Assembly (NCBI GenBank): GCA_017390945.1
Contig: JAFOZZ010000040.1
Location: forward strand, 1 to 32,115
DNA from: Akkermansia sp.
GTDB taxonomy: Bacteria > Verrucomicrobiota > Verrucomicrobiia > Verrucomicrobiales > Akkermansiaceae
DNA: 32,115 nucleotides
Direction of reading: 5' to 3'
Position numbers and translations under genes: made by a program. How positions within the stretch are numbered: the stretch's first letter is position 1; each line of letters begins with the position of its first letter. Positions 20,411 through 31,613 of the stretch are shown piece after piece. The notes below the pieces were generated by a model. That model was given only the letters and a program-made list of their open reading frames with translations, ran no database searches and was not told the origin of the DNA.

Positions 20411-21115
20411 ATGAAACACACCATCGTAACCCTCAGCTTGCTTCTGGGGCTTTGCACATGGGCTCTGCCCGTAGCCGAGGCTCAGAATGACAACACTCCC
20501 GCCGCCTCCAGCCGCTCCAAGAAAGAAAAGAAAAAGAAGATGACGGCTAAGGAAAAGCGCGAGGCGGCCAAGGAAAAGAAGGCCGCAGCCAAGGCTGAAA
20601 AGGCCGCCGCCAAGGCCAAGAAGCTCGCCGAAAAGAAAGCCGCCGCCATCCAGCGCGCTTTCGAAGCAGCAGAGCCCACCTCCGCCATCGGCAAGTTCCT
20701 CAAAGAGCAGAAATACGCTACCGATGCCCGCCCGAATCTGGAGGCCGAGTACTACGTCATTTTCCGCTCCTCCTCCACCTGCAAGCACTGCCACAAGCTC
20801 CTGCCGGATGTCATCACCGCCCACGCTGAGATGCTTGCCAGCAAGAAGGTGGACATCATCTTCGACAGCTATGATGGCGACCTCTCTGCCACCAAGGAGT
20901 ACCTGGAGAAAAACGGTGCCTCCTTTGCCGCTGTGCATAACCCCGCCATGCAGAAGATGCCCGGCGCCCTGCACCAGTACCTCCTGCTGCCCCCCGGCAT
21001 GTACATCGTAACAGCGGAGGGCCAGCGCGTGGCTCATGGTCACGCCTCCCAGGTGCTTCCGGACTGGAAGAAGCACACGCTCGACAAGGCCGCTGAAGCT
21101 CCGGCTGCCGAGTAA
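20411..21115 (+). CDS. Exported thioredoxin-fold protein with Lys/Ala-rich linker
   Basis: A 234-residue precursor. Residues 1-24 form a Sec signal peptide ending AEA. Residues 34-78 are an extremely Lys/Ala/Glu-rich helical stretch. From about 110 a thioredoxin-like domain follows, with CKHC (Cys124, Cys127) after FRSSST and a hydrophobic beta strand before it, and LPPGMYIV near a possible cis-proline position. The CxxC suggests a periplasmic disulfide reductase, oxidase or isomerase, but the partners are unknown. It lies 23 bases after the thioesterase gene and ends the mutS unit before a strong terminator. Confidence 0.88.
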   Translation: MKHTIVTLSLLLGLCTWALPVAEAQNDNTPAASSRSKKEKKKKMTAKEKREAAKEKKAAAKAEKAAAKAKKLAEKKAAAIQRAFEAAEPTSAIGKFLKEQKYATDARPNLEAEYYVIFRSSSTCKHCHKLLPDVITAHAEMLASKKVDIIFDSYDGDLSATKEYLEKNGASFAAVHNPAMQKMPGALHQYLLLPPGMYIVTAEGQRVAHGHASQVLPDWKKHTLDKAAEAPAAE

Positions 21116-24666: not shown

Positions 24667-27600
24667 TTACTTCTGCTCGGCATCCAGGGAATCAGCGAGC
24701 GGGTCAGCCACGAGCTCTTCCTCGCCCATGGCGAGAACACCCGGGTTCGTCTCGCGCTTCACCTTGCCCATCACCTTCTTGCGAGGCAGCTTAATCTTCT
24801 TCTCGGCCTTCATGCGCACGCCGGGCATAGGAGCACCGCTGATGGTCTCCCCCTCCGGAAGCTCCATGGGGCCGAAAGAATCCATAGCCTCGGTCACAGC
24901 GGGCATACCCTCAGGCATGTCAGGAGCGGGCAGCTCATCCTCCTCGGGTGCATTGGCACGAGCGCGGGCGGTAATCTGGCTCATCTGCTCGCGCAGCATG
25001 GACAGCAGGTCGCCATTGCCCAGGATATCGGTGATATCGCTGTCCTCCTCATCCGCATTGCTGCTGGGCAGAGAGGCCAGGAAGTCCTCGAAAGCGTTGA
25101 GGTTCGTGGTGCTGCGGAAGAGGTTAGCGAGAATCTCGAACTGAATGTTGTTCATCAGGGTCTCGAAAATCTCGTAAGCCTCGCGCTTGTACTCCACGAG
25201 CGGGTCGCGCTGCCCCTGAGCACGCAGGCGTACGCCTTCGCGCAGGGCATCCATATCGGTGATATGCTGCTGCCAGAGCTTATCGATGGATTGCAGCATA
25301 ATGCTACGCTCCATCTGCTCCACGCGGTCCGGACGCTCACCTGCCACCTTCTTCTCGTACATCTCGCGCACCTTGTCAATGATAACCTGTGCGGCGTCAG
25401 TCGGTGTCTTGCTCAGGAAGTCGGAGTCGGCCTCGCCCCAACCCAGGGGGAAGGTAGCATTCACCCACTGCAACAGGTCAGCGCGGCGCACCGTACCGGT
25501 GTTGTCCTCGTTGAGGTAGAGCTCGCACTTGTTGTTCACGCCCTCATTGAGCTGGTCGTAAATCATCTCGCGCGGGTCTTCGCACAGCAGAGCCTCGTTA
25601 CGCATACCGTACACAATGGTACGCTGCTGGTTCATCACGTCATCGTAGTCCAGCACGTGCTTACGCCACATGTAGTTGCGCTGCTCTACGCGCTTCTGTG
25701 CGCCCTCGATAATCTTGTTCATCAGGCCGCTTTCCACAGCCTCACCTTCCTCCATACCGAAGCGATCCATCACGCGGGTCATGCGCTCGCTGCCACCGAA
25801 GTTGCGCATCAGGTCGTCCTCGAAGGAGAGGAAGAACTGGGAAGCACCGGGGTCGCCCTGGCGAGAACAACGGCCACGCAGCTGGCGGTCGATACGGCGG
25901 GACTCATAGCGCTCGGTACCCAGCACAAACAGGCCACCCAGCGCGGCCACACCCTCGCCCAGCTTAATGTCGGTACCACGACCAGCCATGTTGGTGGACA
26001 CGGTCACAGCACCACGCTGGCCGGCACGAGCCACAATCTCAGCTTCGCGCTGGTGGTTCTTGGCATTCAGCACCTCGTGCGGAATGCGAGCACCGGAAAG
26101 CATGCGGGAAAGCGTCTCGGAAGCCACCACACTGGCAGTACCCACCAGCACAGGCTGCCCCTTGGTGTGCAGTTCCTTAATCTTGGCTACCACAGCGTTG
26201 AACTTCTCACGACGCGTCTTGAAAATCAGGTCGTTCAGATCCTCACGGATGCAGGGACGGTTCGTCGGGATGGGCAGCACGTCCAGCTTGTAAATATCAT
26301 GGAACTCAGCAGCCTCCGTTTCAGCCGTACCGGTCATACCAGCCAGGCGGGTATAGAGGCGGAAGTAGTTCTGAATGGTGATAGTGGCGTAGGTCATGTT
26401 CTCGGCCTCTACCTCCACACCTTCCTTGGCTTCCACGGCCTGGTGCAGGCCTTCGCTCCAGCGGCGACCCGGCATTTCACGGCCGGTGTTCTGGTCAATG
26501 ATAACAACCTTGCCCTCCTTCACCACGTATTCCTTATCCTTTTCGTAGATGGTGTAGGCCTTCAGCAGCTGACTGATGGTGTGCAGGCGAGCAGCATTCT
26601 CATCCAGTCGCTTAATGAGCATGGACTTGCGAGCCTCGCGTTCGCGCTCGCTCAGCGTCTCATCCTCATCAATGTTCACGAACTCGGTGCCGAGGTCAGG
26701 CAGCACGAAATCCTCCGGCTTGCCGGGGCTGATGAGCTCGCGGCCCATCTCCATCAGATCGGCATCATGCAGCTTTTCATCCAGGCAGAAGTACAGCTCT
26801 TCCTTCAGCTTGAAGAGCTCCAGCTTACGGGGGTCCTGCAGCAGGAACAGCTCGTACTTCTCCACCATGCGGCGCATCTCCACGTCCTCCTGAGAGCGCA
26901 TGAAAGCACGGTTGCGGGGCATGCCCAGCTTCACCTTGTACAGGCAGCGACCGGCAGCAGAGGCATCGCCCTCAGCGGCGTACTTCTTCGCCTTGGTCAT
27001 CAGGCCGTTGCAAAGCTCAATCTGAGCCTTCACCACCTTCTCAATGAGGGGCTTCAGCACATCATACTGCTGCTCGCGTTCAATAACGGCCGGACCGGAA
27101 ATAATCAGCGGCGTGCGAGCCTCGTCAATCAGAATGGAGTCCACCTCGTCAATGATGGCGAAATAGTGCCCGCGCTGCACCTGAGCACTGCGGGTATTGG
27201 CCATACCATTGTCGCGCAGGTAGTCAAAGCCGAACTCAGCATTGGTACCGTAAGTGATATCGCAGGCGTACATCTGGCGGCGCAGGTCGTTGGGCATCAT
27301 GCTCTGAATACAGCCAACCGTCAGGCCGAGGTATTTGAAGAGCGCACCCATCCACATGGAGTCGCGGCGAGCCAGGTAGTCGTTCACCGTCACAACGTGC
27401 ACACCCAGCCCCGTCAGAGCATTCAGGTATACAGGCAGCGTTGCCACGAGGGTCTTACCCTCACCTGTGGCCATCTCGGCAATAAAGCCACGGTGCAGCG
27501 CAATACCGCCAATCAGCTGCACGTCAAAGTGTACCATATCCCACTTAATCGGGGTACCGCATACATCCACCTCAGTACCGCACAGGTTGCGGGCAGCGCA

Positions 27601-28023
27601 CTTGGCCACAGCAAAGGCCTCGGGCATAATCTGCTCCAGATACTTGGCACGCAGCTTGTCGAACTTAGGCTCAATCTCAGCAAAGGCTTTCTTACCAGCC
27701 TCAATGGAATCCGGCGTAGCCTCTACGGCAGGCAGCTTGGGGAAAAGGTCTTTCAGGGACTCAAAACGGGTATTCAGCACTTCTGCATACTGCTGCAAAT
27801 CAGCGGCATCCGCAGCCAGAATCTCACCTCGGGTCGGCAGCGTAATCGGCGTAAAGCGGTGCAGATACTTCTGCCACTCAGCTGTCTTACCTACCAGGAA
27901 ATCGCGGTCCTTACCCTCCCAGTTCTTCTCGATTTCGAGCATCTTCTTCACAACGGGGCGCAGCTTACGCACCTCGCGCTGGTTCTTGGAACCTACGATT
28001 TTATTGAGAATCCACTTAATCAT
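24667..28023 (-). CDS. secA: Protein translocase ATPase SecA
   Basis: SecA drives preproteins through SecYEG at the inner membrane. At 1118 residues it is far longer than E. coli SecA (901). Walker A is MATGEGKT (184-191), with DEVDS as the DEAD-box equivalent, a GRRWSEGLHQAVEAKEGV region, TNMAGRGTDIKLG and the RQLRGRCSRQGDPG helicase motif. Extra residues lie mainly between about 325 and 480, in the preprotein-binding region. The C-terminus is a variable tail rich in Pro, Met and charged residues and lacks the Cys-rich zinc motif that binds SecB. It has its own promoter and a leader with a tandem 12-bp repeat. argA follows. Confidence 0.97.
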   Translation of the reverse strand: MIKWILNKIVGSKNQREVRKLRPVVKKMLEIEKNWEGKDRDFLVGKTAEWQKYLHRFTPITLPTRGEILAADAADLQQYAEVLNTRFESLKDLFPKLPAVEATPDSIEAGKKAFAEIEPKFDKLRAKYLEQIMPEAFAVAKCAARNLCGTEVDVCGTPIKWDMVHFDVQLIGGIALHRGFIAEMATGEGKTLVATLPVYLNALTGLGVHVVTVNDYLARRDSMWMGALFKYLGLTVGCIQSMMPNDLRRQMYACDITYGTNAEFGFDYLRDNGMANTRSAQVQRGHYFAIIDEVDSILIDEARTPLIISGPAVIEREQQYDVLKPLIEKVVKAQIELCNGLMTKAKKYAAEGDASAAGRCLYKVKLGMPRNRAFMRSQEDVEMRRMVEKYELFLLQDPRKLELFKLKEELYFCLDEKLHDADLMEMGRELISPGKPEDFVLPDLGTEFVNIDEDETLSEREREARKSMLIKRLDENAARLHTISQLLKAYTIYEKDKEYVVKEGKVVIIDQNTGREMPGRRWSEGLHQAVEAKEGVEVEAENMTYATITIQNYFRLYTRLAGMTGTAETEAAEFHDIYKLDVLPIPTNRPCIREDLNDLIFKTRREKFNAVVAKIKELHTKGQPVLVGTASVVASETLSRMLSGARIPHEVLNAKNHQREAEIVARAGQRGAVTVSTNMAGRGTDIKLGEGVAALGGLFVLGTERYESRRIDRQLRGRCSRQGDPGASQFFLSFEDDLMRNFGGSERMTRVMDRFGMEEGEAVESGLMNKIIEGAQKRVEQRNYMWRKHVLDYDDVMNQQRTIVYGMRNEALLCEDPREMIYDQLNEGVNNKCELYLNEDNTGTVRRADLLQWVNATFPLGWGEADSDFLSKTPTDAAQVIIDKVREMYEKKVAGERPDRVEQMERSIMLQSIDKLWQQHITDMDALREGVRLRAQGQRDPLVEYKREAYEIFETLMNNIQFEILANLFRSTTNLNAFEDFLASLPSSNADEEDSDITDILGNGDLLSMLREQMSQITARARANAPEEDELPAPDMPEGMPAVTEAMDSFGPMELPEGETISGAPMPGVRMKAEKKIKLPRKKVMGKVKRETNPGVLAMGEEELVADPLADSLDAEQK

Positions 28024-28027
28024 TTCT

Positions 28028-28052
28028 ATTGACGGTTAAAATTGACGGTTAA
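28028..28052. repeat. Tandem 12-bp repeat in the secA leader
   Basis: ATTGACGGTTAA occurs twice (28028-28039 and 28041-28052), separated by one A, giving a period of 13. It lies in the untranslated leader, ending five bases before the ATG. Confidence 0.9.
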
Positions 28053-28081
28053 GCGCGCCCGAGATACGCACGCGGTTGCAC

Positions 28082-28110
28082 ATTGTAGCATAACTACCTG
28101 CCCGTGGCAA
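28082..28110 (-). promoter_or_regulatory. secA promoter
   Basis: TTGCCA (28105-28110), a 17-bp spacer and TACAAT (28082-28087) predict a start near 28075 and a leader of about 52 bases. Confidence 0.85.
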
Positions 28111-28205
28111 GCATAACGCCCGAATTCCCCCTGCCCTGTTGTGTCATGCTGCCATGAATGAAGACTAACAAGGCAGGCTCTCCGTTGACAAGCGCTCATG
28201 AGCCC

Positions 28206-28243
28206 CAAAGAACAAGCCGCAGCAATGACTTGCTGCGGCTTGT
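28206..28243 (-). terminator. metY terminator
   Basis: A perfect 14-bp stem (28212-28225 with 28230-28243) with loop TGAC is followed on the - strand by TTCTTT. Confidence 0.85.
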
Positions 28244-28270
28244 CGATAGAGGTTTATTCCTTCCGGGGAA

Positions 28271-29548
28271 TTAACGAATGGCGGCAAAAGCCTGCTGAAG
28301 GTCAGCAATGATATCCTCTGCGGCCTCAATACCTACGGAGAAGCGAATAAGGTCGGGCTTTACACCGGCCTCCACCAGCTGCTCGTCCGTCAGCTGACGG
28401 TGCGTATGGCTGGCCGGGTGCAGCACGCAGGTGCGGGCATCGGCCACGTGCGTCACGATGGAGGTGAGCTTCAGGCTGTCCATGAACTTGATAGCGCGCT
28501 CACGGCCACCCTTAATACCGAAGGTTACAACACCGCAGGTACGGCCGCCATCAAACTGACGCTGAGCCAGCTCGTAGTAGCGGTTGCTGGGCAGACCGGC
28601 ATAGTTAATCCACGCCACATCCTCCTGAGCCTCCAGGAACTCTGCCACCTTCTGGGCGTTCTCGCAGTGGCGCGGCACGCGCAGGTGCAGCGTCTCAAGC
28701 CCCAGATTCAGCAGGAAGGCATTCATGGGGGACGGGATGGAACCAAGGTCGCGCATCAGCTGTACGGTGCACTTGGTGATGTAGGCGCCCTTGCCGAAAG
28801 CCTCCGTGTACACAAGGCCGTGGTAGGAATCATCCGGCTGAGTCAGCCCCGGGAAGCGGTCGGCGTGAGCAGCCCAGTCGAAGTTGCCGCTATCCACCAC
28901 AACACCGCCTACCTGGGTAGCGTGACCATCCATGTACTTGGTGGTGGAGTGCATCACGATGTCGGCGCCGTGCTCGAACGGACGGCAGTTCATCGGAGTG
29001 GCAAAGGTATTGTCTACGATAAGGGGTACGCCGTTCTTGTGGGCGATATCGGCCATCTTGCGGATGTCCAGCACCTGCAGGGAGGGGTTGGAAATCGTCT
29101 CGGAGAATACGCACTTCGTATTCGGACGGAACGCTTTCTGGATTTCCTCCTCGGGGGCATCCTGGTCAACAAACGTTACTTCGATACCCAGCTTCTTAAA
29201 CGTAACGGCAAAGAGGTTGAATGTGCCGCCGTAAATAGCGCTGGTGGAGATGAAGTGGTCGCCGGCTTCGCAGATATTGAAAATGGAGTAGAAAGATGCA
29301 GCCTGACCGGAAGATGTCAGAATAGCAGCTACGCCGCCCTCCAGCTCTGCAATCTTCTTAGCCACACACTCATTGGTGGGGTTCTGCAGACGAGTGTAGA
29401 AGAAGCCGGATTCCTCCAGGTCGAACAAGCGTGCCATCTGGTCGCTCGTCTCATACTTGAAGGTAGTCGACTGAAAAATAGGCAGCACTCGGGCTTCACC
29501 CTTCTTGGGCTGCCAACCGCTCTGTACGCAAATGGTGTCTCTGTTCAT
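28271..29548 (-). CDS. metY: O-acetylhomoserine aminocarboxypropyltransferase (sulfhydrylase)
   Basis: A 425-residue PLP enzyme of the Cys/Met metabolism family. MetY makes homocysteine directly from O-acetylhomoserine and sulfide, and can accept methanethiol. The PLP lysine is Lys204 in HSTTKYMDGHA, the pyridine-binding Asp is in VDNTFATP (Asp179), and YTRLQNPT (51-58) is the substrate-site motif. Length and the HSTTKY lysine site favour MetY over the shorter MetB or MetC (about 380-395). I chose the ATG at 29548 over the in-frame TTG upstream. It is monocistronic with its own promoter and terminator. No S-box riboswitch is seen, and the leader is only about 27 bases. Confidence 0.92.
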   Translation of the reverse strand: MNRDTICVQSGWQPKKGEARVLPIFQSTTFKYETSDQMARLFDLEESGFFYTRLQNPTNECVAKKIAELEGGVAAILTSSGQAASFYSIFNICEAGDHFISTSAIYGGTFNLFAVTFKKLGIEVTFVDQDAPEEEIQKAFRPNTKCVFSETISNPSLQVLDIRKMADIAHKNGVPLIVDNTFATPMNCRPFEHGADIVMHSTTKYMDGHATQVGGVVVDSGNFDWAAHADRFPGLTQPDDSYHGLVYTEAFGKGAYITKCTVQLMRDLGSIPSPMNAFLLNLGLETLHLRVPRHCENAQKVAEFLEAQEDVAWINYAGLPSNRYYELAQRQFDGGRTCGVVTFGIKGGRERAIKFMDSLKLTSIVTHVADARTCVLHPASHTHRQLTDEQLVEAGVKPDLIRFSVGIEAAEDIIADLQQAFAAIR

Positions 29549-29581
29549 GGTTAGATGCAATTTTTTAACGCTTGCGCGGGC

Positions 29582-29610
29582 ATAGTATCACTTTATTCCT
29601 ATAATTGCAA
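29582..29610 (-). promoter_or_regulatory. metY promoter
   Basis: TTGCAA (29605-29610), a 17-bp spacer and TACTAT (29582-29587) predict a start near 29575. Confidence 0.85.
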
Positions 29611-29640
29611 GGAGAAATATACGAATTATGTCAAAAAATG

Positions 29641-29680
29641 TAAAAAAGATGCTCGATAGGTTAGAAAACCTACCGAGCAT
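29641..29680 (-). terminator. Terminator of the PA14-like gene
   Basis: A 14-bp stem with one mismatch (29649-29662 with 29667-29680) is followed on the - strand by CTTTTTTA. Confidence 0.92.
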
Positions 29681-29703
29681 GGTTCATTGAACAGATGAAA
29701 TTG

Positions 29704-30984
29704 TTACCAGAGGCGCCAGGAATCGAGGATATTTTCCTCCTTGCCCTGTTTATCCTCTTTTTTCGGCTTATCGTTGGCGGAGTCATCCTTGTGCGAGGTA
29801 CCCATAGCGGTATCCTTGTCGCTGCCGCTAATCTTGCCGAACAGTCGGGAGAAGAGGCCGCGCTTCTCGCCTTCCGCGAAATCGGCCTTCCAGATAAGGC
29901 TATCCTCGACAAAGGGCGGTCCCTCCTTACAATCGCTGATGGAATAATCGACACCGCCAGCAGTCAGGGCGCGCTTTATCTTAGCCGGGTCAGGCAGCAC
30001 ATCGCAGGTGCGGAAAAGGTGAAGCTTGGGTGCCTCCTTAGGGGCAAAAATACCGTACGGAGCCTTTCCGGGGCTCTCAATTTCCTCCGTCAGCAGACAG
30101 AAGCCGAACTCGTTCCCAGGCACCTCCGACACCAGAATCTCGATGGGGTATTTCTCGCCCTTCTTCACGGTAAAAGGCACACCGGAGGGGATACCACCCA
30201 GCATCCGATTCCAGTGCGGAGTATTCTCGAACTGATAGATAGCGCGGCCGCGAGTCTGAGGCGTTATCTCCCGCTGGTGACGGGAGGCTGCGTTATGAGC
30301 CTTCTGGGTAATCTCCTGCTGGTATGTGCGGCGAGTTCCTTCATCGAAACCACGGCGGGTCGGAATCGTCCAACCGCTTTCCAACACCAGCTTGTTGTTG
30401 AAGCGCACCATCAAGGTATCATCCCCCATACCCACGAAGCGGAAGGTGCCGCTCTTAGGTGCAGTTACAACGCCGCGATAGATAACCACCCAGGCGGTCG
30501 GGTTCACCTTGGGCTCACCCTTGTCCGCATTCACATTACACTGAAAAGCCTCCGGACCATAGCTTGCCTTGCAGCGCGGCAAGTAAAAATAAGGGGCATA
30601 CAACTTTACCTTGGGGGAGTAATAACCGGCAAACACCGACTGATCCCACTTCTTGTTGTTGAACTCATGGAAGATATCCACCACCCCCTGGCGCTTCAGC
30701 GGCTTTGACTTTCCATCAATGGGTTGCTTCAGGTCGTAAAAACGCCCCACCAGCGCAGACTCTTCATCCACCACGTTACCAAAAGCCTGAAGCAAATCAT
30801 AGTTCAGCTCCATTTTGTCCCATTGCTTTTTGGCGGTATCCCAGGCGCGCTTACCGATGTCGCCTGCCTGCTGCCCGAGCTCCTTGGTATCCTCCCACAA
30901 ATCATTCCAGTCAGCCCGTGCCTGCGGAACCATGGCCAACATACAGATACCTGCTAATATTGAGTTAAAGTGTGCTCTCTTCAT
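29704..30984 (-). CDS. Exported PA14-like domain protein
   Basis: A 426-residue precursor with a Sec signal peptide (residues 1-24, ending QARA). The N-terminal mature part is helical (WNDLWEDTKELGQQAGD). A segment from about 160 to 300 resembles a PA14 domain: SGTFRFVGMGDDTLMVRFNNKLV, given here in part as GTFRFVGMGDD and RFNNKLVLESGW, followed by a KYPIEILVSE strand. PA14 domains often bind carbohydrate. The C-terminus is a Lys/Asp-rich low-complexity tail (about 390-420). No catalytic module is recognised. The promoter places the ATG six bases after the -10 box. It is probably periplasmic or surface-exposed; its role is unknown. Confidence 0.9.
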   Translation of the reverse strand: MKRAHFNSILAGICMLAMVPQARADWNDLWEDTKELGQQAGDIGKRAWDTAKKQWDKMELNYDLLQAFGNVVDEESALVGRFYDLKQPIDGKSKPLKRQGVVDIFHEFNNKKWDQSVFAGYYSPKVKLYAPYFYLPRCKASYGPEAFQCNVNADKGEPKVNPTAWVVIYRGVVTAPKSGTFRFVGMGDDTLMVRFNNKLVLESGWTIPTRRGFDEGTRRTYQQEITQKAHNAASRHQREITPQTRGRAIYQFENTPHWNRMLGGIPSGVPFTVKKGEKYPIEILVSEVPGNEFGFCLLTEEIESPGKAPYGIFAPKEAPKLHLFRTCDVLPDPAKIKRALTAGGVDYSISDCKEGPPFVEDSLIWKADFAEGEKRGLFSRLFGKISGSDKDTAMGTSHKDDSANDKPKKEDKQGKEENILDSWRLW

Positions 30985-30990
30985 GCTCTC

Positions 30991-31019
30991 AGTCTACCCA
31001 ACCACCAGCGCCATAGCAA
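30991..31019 (-). promoter_or_regulatory. Promoter of the PA14-like gene, leaderless geometry
   Basis: TTGCTA (31014-31019), a 17-bp spacer and TAGACT (30991-30996) lie exactly 6 nt before the ATG at 30984. Confidence 0.8.
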
Positions 31020-31133: not shown

Positions 31134-31613
31134 ATTGCCCTGCATCTGCGGGGCAATCTCATTCATGCGCCAGCATGAATGAGATTGAGCCTCATGCTCA
31201 ATCTCTCTGCGAGCCCACTCGCAATCTCGTCCCAAAAACTGCCCGCGACAGCGGGCAATTTCACCAGCCCCGCCCAGGGGGCTGATTTCACTTTGCCCCC
31301 GGCAAAATTTCACCCGAGCGCCAGCGAGGATTTCACCTGAGCCGCCAGGCGCAACATCACCTCGTCCTTCCCATCACTGCCCGCGCCAGCGGGCAATCTC
31401 GTTCACGCGCAAGCGTGAATCTCGTTGAGCCGCCAGGCTCAATCTCACTGCGAGCCCGCTCGCAATCTCGTCCCAAAAACTGCCCGCGCCAGCGGGCAAT
31501 TTCACCAGCCCCGCCCAGGGGCTGATTTCACTTTGCCCCCGGCAAAATTTCACCCGAGCGCCAGCGAGGATTTCACCTGCGCCGCAGGCGCAACATCACC
31601 TCGTACCTCGCAA
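31134..31613. repeat. Array of different short palindromes, duplicated as a 240-bp unit
   Basis: Two direct copies of about 240 bp (roughly 31134-31373 and 31374-31613; offset 240-241) each hold about eight to nine short inverted repeats of 12-18 bp. Each palindrome has a different sequence, for example TGCCCGC/GCGGGCA, TTCACGC/GCGTGAA, TTGAGCC/GGCTCAA, TGCGAGC/GCTCGCA, AGCCCC/GGGGCT, TTTGCC/GGCAAA and TGCGCC/GGCGCA. The loop is often GCCA or GCAA, and each palindrome is followed by ATCTCG, ATTTCAC or ACATCAC. Several palindromes differ between copies but remain self-complementary. No coding features are seen on either strand. Confidence 0.9.

Follow-up and report, generated by a model that had tools for sequence, protein, structure and literature searches.

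A tandem chain of hairpins in the window

The stretch of DNA under study (hereafter, the window) is contig JAFOZZ010000040.1 of the Akkermansia sp. assembly GCA_017390945.1, 32,115 nt in length. Positions 31134-31613, located between protein genes, were found to hold two tandem copies of a chain of short hairpins (unit 240 bp, 1.9 copies, 92% matches), in agreement with a preliminary description of this region as a duplicated array of palindromes. Each copy consists of module A, with four hairpins and the words ATCTCGT or ATCTCAC, followed by module B, with about five hairpins, ATTTCAC words between them and ACATCAC at the close. On the forward strand, module A of copy 1 (31134..31230) has four hairpins with words of the ATCTCA/ATCTCG type and matched a covariance model (R1) with an E value of 2.9e-16. 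Module B of copy 1 (31240..31360), with ATTTCAC between its hairpins and ACATCAC closing, has hairpins at 31240-31257, 31265-31284, 31292-31306, 31314-31329 (imperfect) and 31338-31353 (one mismatch). Module A of copy 2 (31376..31471; R1 match with an E value of 1.1e-21) has the words ATCTCGT, ATCTCGT, ATCTCAC and ATCTCGT and hairpins at 31378-31395, 31402-31419, 31425-31442 and 31449-31464. Module B of copy 2 (31481..31599) has ATTTCAC words between hairpins at 31481-31498, 31506-31524, 31532-31546, 31554-31569 (imperfect) and 31578-31592, with the closing ACATCAC at 31593-31599.

Thirteen perfect hairpins with stems of at least 6 bp were detected within 31134-31613 and cover half of its 480 bp, compared to a mean hairpin coverage of 3.3% and a maximum of 12% elsewhere in the window. 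Chains of hairpins with similar linkers numbered three at the array, none elsewhere in the window and none in 30 Markov-1 random windows. The array strand was also found to fold strongly as RNA (z = -11.1 compared to shuffles). The main conserved signal of the array is its linkers, each a 7-nt word, and the hairpins are the spacers between the words. Perfect inverted repeats joined by fixed linkers, as previously described, were generally observed, although a few stems are imperfect (CCGAGC-GCCA-GCGAGG in both copies and TGAGCC-GCCA-GGCGCA, with one mismatch, in copy 1). In module A of copy 1, one linker has turned into the reverse complement of the linker that precedes it, such that the second hairpin is extended to a 15-bp perfect hairpin (CAATCTCATTCATGC-gcca-GCATGAATGAGATTG; 31154..31187, forward strand); TGAGAT is found here where the other copies have ATCTCG as the 3' flank.

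The neighboring host gene (29704..30984, reverse strand) encodes a 426-aa protein with a Pfam match to the PA14 domain; its start faces the array, and it lies outside of the element. Orthologues of this gene in 19 species had no array beside them. The orthologous locus does not provide a clean empty site, since the genes are ordered differently there than in the window (secA is no longer the divergent neighbor). The PA14-type gene has secA as its divergent neighbor in most related species; within 24667-31000 of the window it does not, and the order is broken beside the array. Other repeats of the window include a 12-mer (CCTGTAGCTTGT) in 8.3 perfect copies at the contig edge (1-100) and imperfect 21-bp tandem repeats, lysine-rich in translation, in a coding stretch (20528-20630). 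A search of Rfam families at gathering score detected one tRNA in the window and no match at the array, and the window had no rRNA match.

Copies, covariation and spread of the array family

The source genome is a fragmented draft (2.47 Mb in 225 contigs, 87% complete), in which copy counts are search matches. The array family was detected at 50 places by blast and by 97 matches at E<=1 to the module A covariance model; further arrays in the genome had been the main test set by the preliminary description. These arrays reside in varied gene contexts, often past terminators, and are intermixed with other modules (words such as ATATAAC, ATTTAAC and GTGATAT). A hairpin repeat of another kind, GC-rich and of the ACCCCGG..CCGGGGT type, flanks an IS200-type TnpA gene of the source genome on both sides (L098, G000:C122, 900-2160) and occurs elsewhere in the genome as well.

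Between copies of the array, the words and the succession of hairpins are retained, whereas stems and loops differ. Among 28 aligned copies, 96.6% of the paired cells were complementary, compared to 25-40% when partners were slid, and 47 double changes were observed versus 15 in shuffles. Thus, the earlier claim that paired arms change together holds beyond chance, but as what usually rather than always occurs, given the few imperfect hairpins. The accompanying proposal of selection or a copying mechanism acting on the hairpins is a fair reading. We infer that pairing is kept by selection and/or self-templated copying, either of which would explain the covariation equally well. The single case of templated word conversion is that of window copy 1, which resembles a copying event.

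For analysis of the loops, the strand reading ATxTCAC was used. Tetraloops of GNNA form were found to exceed those of TNNC form by 29:1 in the source genome, 16:4 in relatives and 41:0 in Clostridia, and triloops of GNA form exceeded TNC by 76:4 overall. The loop-closing pair was nearly always C-G, and the third loop base had no purine preference (that is, no GNRA bias). The minihairpins d(cGNNAg) and d(cGNAg) are very stable in DNA, and the loop pattern fits these better than it fits the GNRA loops of RNA. One single strand of this polarity seems to matter.

The pattern GTGADATT-N-GTGADATT-N-GTGADATT was detected in 10 of 76 Akkermansia species, one of which (G169) had no hairpin match, and the backwards control pattern was detected in none of the 76. 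Arrays with TATCGT words were found in a further Akkermansia species (G183). When 84,980 species genomes were scanned, the matches listed included many ruminant-gut Clostridia with the same architecture, in which the hairpins differ from those of Akkermansia and the arrays often have two mirror-image halves. A scan of viral contigs recovered 52 stretches, nearly all without hairpins and ascribed to chance or simple tandem repeats. A phage origin of the arrays was rejected, as the viral matches were mostly chance-like.

IVP/S23 genes between mirrored 7-nt words

On several contigs, a PF05635 gene, encoding the 23S rRNA intervening-sequence protein (IVP/S23), was found between arrays; the protein encoded on contig C168 matched PF05635 with an E value of 5e-21. 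S23p has been described as a homopentamer of four-helix bundles, with a solved structure and no known function (PMC4990558). The solved IVP relatives 2rld and 2gsc have five chains each; when solved structures were searched by profile for additional relatives (the Avd protein of diversity-generating retroelements, for example), these two were the only matches. At most IVP loci read, a single word specific to the element was found in arrays on both sides of the gene, in mirror image; these words include TTCTTCACC/GGTGAAGAA (C136), CGAGAT (C116), GTGAAAT (C168), GTTGAAA, AAACATT, TACAATT, TTCGTAT, CTTTCACG and others. The words beside IVP genes, typically about four per arm, are arranged in plain head-to-tail tandem or are separated by hairpins. 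The word varies by species, yet the two arms agree at those loci that allowed both to be read (e.g., L349 vs L358; L357 vs L363). Two IVP genes of the source genome carry the words of the window in hairpin arrays, ATCTCGT on C116 (where the gene is perhaps truncated at its start) and ATTTCAC on C168, and elsewhere in this genome plain tandem heptamers accompany IVP genes. No IVP gene was found on the 32-kb contig of the window array itself.

This arrangement was compared to that at control genes, which were small, author-chosen sets that included Y1 transposases. Repeated 6-mers at exactly 7-nt spacing were found at 19.2 per kb in Akkermansia IVP flanks, 6.9 in Clostridia and 14.0 in other phyla, compared to 1.3 at control genes; two-letter words were filtered in this test, and the result is unambiguous nonetheless. 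Further spacing peaks in the IVP flanks were at 14 nt and, where hairpins separate the words, at 20-25 nt. A mirrored word with at least three copies each way was detected in 68% of Akkermansia IVP flanks compared to 16% of controls (p=4e-7), and in 76% of Clostridia IVP flanks compared to 14% (p=2e-9); p was 3e-7 in an initial form of the test. The word extraction was crude and leaves about a third of IVP flanks below the word threshold. Across 39 loci, IVP identity correlated with word similarity (r=0.29, with 0 of 2000 permutations as high; 0.44 within Akkermansia and 0.34 within Clostridia), a correlation that recognition of the word by the protein or common descent of linked DNA could each produce.

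IVP was present in 10 of 10 Akkermansia species with hairpin arrays compared to 45 of 66 others (p=0.03), and no PF05635 match was found in 21 Akkermansia genomes. Several IVP genes may occur in one genome, up to 15, with differing words, and they are missing from many sister species. Human-type large-genome Akkermansia (L332-L345) also have IVP genes, with weaker mirrored words of AGTTAA type. At one locus of another species (L313, G198:C11, 1085-2700), densely clustered word arrays enclose an IS200-type TnpA gene with an IVP gene beyond it, which suggests nested insertions. Among the 18 Clostridia genomes with hairpin arrays, 14 had IVP genes, most with adjoining word arrays (the AGTGATATT type included), and the other four drafts had no IVP match. 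IVP relatives in viral records were limited to two unannotated faecal phage records.

The pattern was also present at IVP genes of Bacteroidota and of one oscillatorian cyanobacterium. Only 42% of IVP flanks of other phyla passed the crude 6-mer mirror test, which ignores two-letter words (e.g., GGGAAAA) and thereby undercounts the cyanobacterial set. Heptamer repeats were found at the edges of ten named genes on cyanobacterial plasmids, mirrored in most (GGGAACA, GGGTGTA, AAAAGCT, GGTGACA and others), with 57 repeats per kb at a distance of 7 nt and 0 at 8 nt in this set; the annotation of nearly all ten is 'S23 ribosomal protein' or 'four helix bundle protein'. On two plasmids, Pseudanabaena galeata pPg_01 (L462) and Anabaena sp. 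90 pANA02 (L464), an IVP gene with heptamer arrays lies between cas6 and cas4 of a CRISPR locus, followed in the latter by cas1d.

Occupied and empty forms of one site, between aminotransferase and CAAX protease genes, were compared among Akkermansia species. An IVP element or remnant, with words TTTACAA or ATTACGA, occupies this site in about 13 species; the site is empty in about 16. At 8 of 13 occupied compared to 2 of 16 empty orthologous sites (p=0.008), the host gene was found to end in 11-16 nt that recur after it in inverted form, and no direct target-site duplication was established. Two loci without an IVP gene (L437 of G214 and L444 of G204) have a 12-bp palindrome spanning the terminus of the host aminotransferase gene and are perhaps scars of lost elements. 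The inverted copies of host gene ends at occupied sites, together with the word conversion in window copy 1, suggest fold-back synthesis.

Origin of the array and its relation to known repeats

We consider it probable that IVP mobile elements gave rise to the window array, which retains their cis-acting arms in gene-less (MITE-like) form, and, as part of the same reading, that the full element is a small IVP/S23 gene (PF05635, a pentameric ring of four-helix bundles) set between mirror-image arrays of one 7-nt word. The window block, which has two words and no gene, is then read as non-autonomous. Its words are those found at the IVP genes on C116 and C168, and these two genes may have driven the spread of modules A (ATCTCGT) and B (ATTTCAC), respectively. 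In the proposed mechanism, the IVP ring would bind the words as single strands, and hairpins of free sequence would present the words at regular spacing. The two mirrored arms would be brought together, and host replication or repair enzymes would copy the element into new intergenic sites. The arms of the hairpins would remain complementary through selection for folding and through fold-back (self-templated) copying. Against this reading, IVP has no known catalytic site, and we infer the movement of the element from sequence comparison.

Three other explanations were weighed. Word arrays and palindromes could arise passively by replication slippage and quasi-palindrome correction and be spread by recombination between copies, with IVP genes merely lodging in them. 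The templated conversion in window copy 1 is clear, repeats of many types abound in array-bearing genomes, and slippage can expand tandem heptamers, as has been proposed (PMC4692102). However, a gene inserted into an existing array would have words of one orientation to its left and right, whereas the arms at IVP genes are mirror images. Such arrays are absent at control genes (Y1 transposases among them), and the link to IVP recurs in distant phyla. A passive origin is thus unlikely. Slightly less credence is given to structured RNA or regulatory sites, by which IVP would bind host or element signals (in RNA stability, termination or autoregulation) with no mobility. The strong RNA folding and the covariation agree with this explanation, from which a link of gene to word would follow as well, and TAACTGA heptamers of Beggiatoaceae have been suggested as translational control sites (PMC4679880). 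It fits poorly with genomes that hold up to 15 IVP genes of differing words while many sister species have none, with orthologous sites that are empty in some species, with varied gene contexts in which arrays often lie beyond terminators, and with the absence of an Rfam match and of the GNRA loop bias expected of RNA.

The preliminary description had proposed looking for a dedicated transposase or RAYT-like enzyme. A third explanation is that of REP/BIME-like hairpins mobilized on single-stranded DNA by a RAYT or IS200/IS605-type Y1 transposase. Hairpins with strand-specific loops would suit such an enzyme, and Y1 genes are present in the source genome and, in G198 and G183, include one close to arrays. 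By contrast, neither Y1 gene of the source genome is flanked by these arrays, stems vary and words are constant where a constant tetranucleotide tag with a single conserved palindrome would be expected, and two array-bearing species (G207 and G214) have no Y1 match. Since Y1_Tnp was moreover not enriched (8 of 10 array-bearing compared to 42 of 66 other Akkermansia species, p=0.26), a dedicated RAYT/Y1 enzyme is not supported. This explanation, already weakened, is now highly improbable; RAYT/Y1 as the mover was rejected for want of association in the source genome and 76 Akkermansia species, and the data indicate the IVP/S23 gene as the partner instead.

The preferred reading, of a gene-less derivative of IVP elements, places the array beside several known systems. 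The intervening sequences (IVSs) of 23S rRNA in Coxiella and Leptospira encode the same protein family, and that of Coxiella, termed a selfish element, has tandem GACAGAT heptamers ahead of the S23 ORF and a 28-bp terminal stem or inverted repeat (PMC4990558). The window words likewise flank IVP genes (on C116 and C168). However, IVSs lie within the 23S rRNA gene and are cut by RNase III, whereas the elements described here occur between protein genes. The window block, itself outside of any 23S rRNA gene, is without a gene, and its words are spaced by hairpins. Heptamer repeats, such as the cyanobacterial STRR, TAACTGA of Beggiatoaceae and GGGAATC of Xanthomonas, are likewise 7-nt words in intergenic arrays that are patchy across phyla, for which reports name no partner gene and no established mechanism (PMC4679880, PMC4692102). 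Here, by contrast, the words are linked to IVP and, in the window, are separated by hairpins rather than joined head to tail. In the open PMC literature, nothing was found that joins S23/IVP to heptamer or hairpin arrays, save the heptamers beside the Coxiella ORF.

REP/BIME sequences and REPINs resemble the arrays in their many intergenic hairpins per genome and mosaic arrangement, but have one palindrome, a tag of GTAG/CGTC type and a RAYT partner, whereas the arrays have varying stems and constant 7-nt linkers, and no link to a RAYT or Y1 enzyme was found. CRISPRs have identical repeats and unique non-palindromic spacers; in the array the variable parts are palindromic and the constant part is 7 nt. 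That the pattern is not that of REP, ERIC or CRISPR had been stated in the preliminary description and is borne out. MITEs are likewise short and gene-less with ends common to a gene-bearing element, and the window array shares words and architecture with the IVP arms of C116 and C168; it appears to differ in having no DDE transposase or defined target duplication, and its ends are arrays of words and hairpins. Thus, the window array is not a strict IVS, a REP, a CRISPR or a plain heptamer array; it works like a MITE whose partner, IVP, is no known transposase.

A wider reading, which we hold tentatively and at somewhat below an even chance, is that an IVP/S23 ring with mirrored heptamer arrays defines a widespread class of mobile element not previously described. 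Its forms would include 23S rRNA IVSs, heptamer repeats of cyanobacteria and other bacteria, and hairpin arrays, with each protein recognizing its own 7-nt word and fold-back copying taking the place of a classical transposase. The link of IVP to mirrored words provides a candidate cause for heptamer repeats known for decades and a candidate substrate for IVP, both of which can be tested at the bench, and the layout of gene and mirrored 7-nt words in several phyla may explain several bacterial repeat families without a known cause. The hairpin form provides natural covariation experiments on nucleic-acid folding within intergenic DNA, and the genomes of gut bacteria are likely to rearrange at the many array copies.
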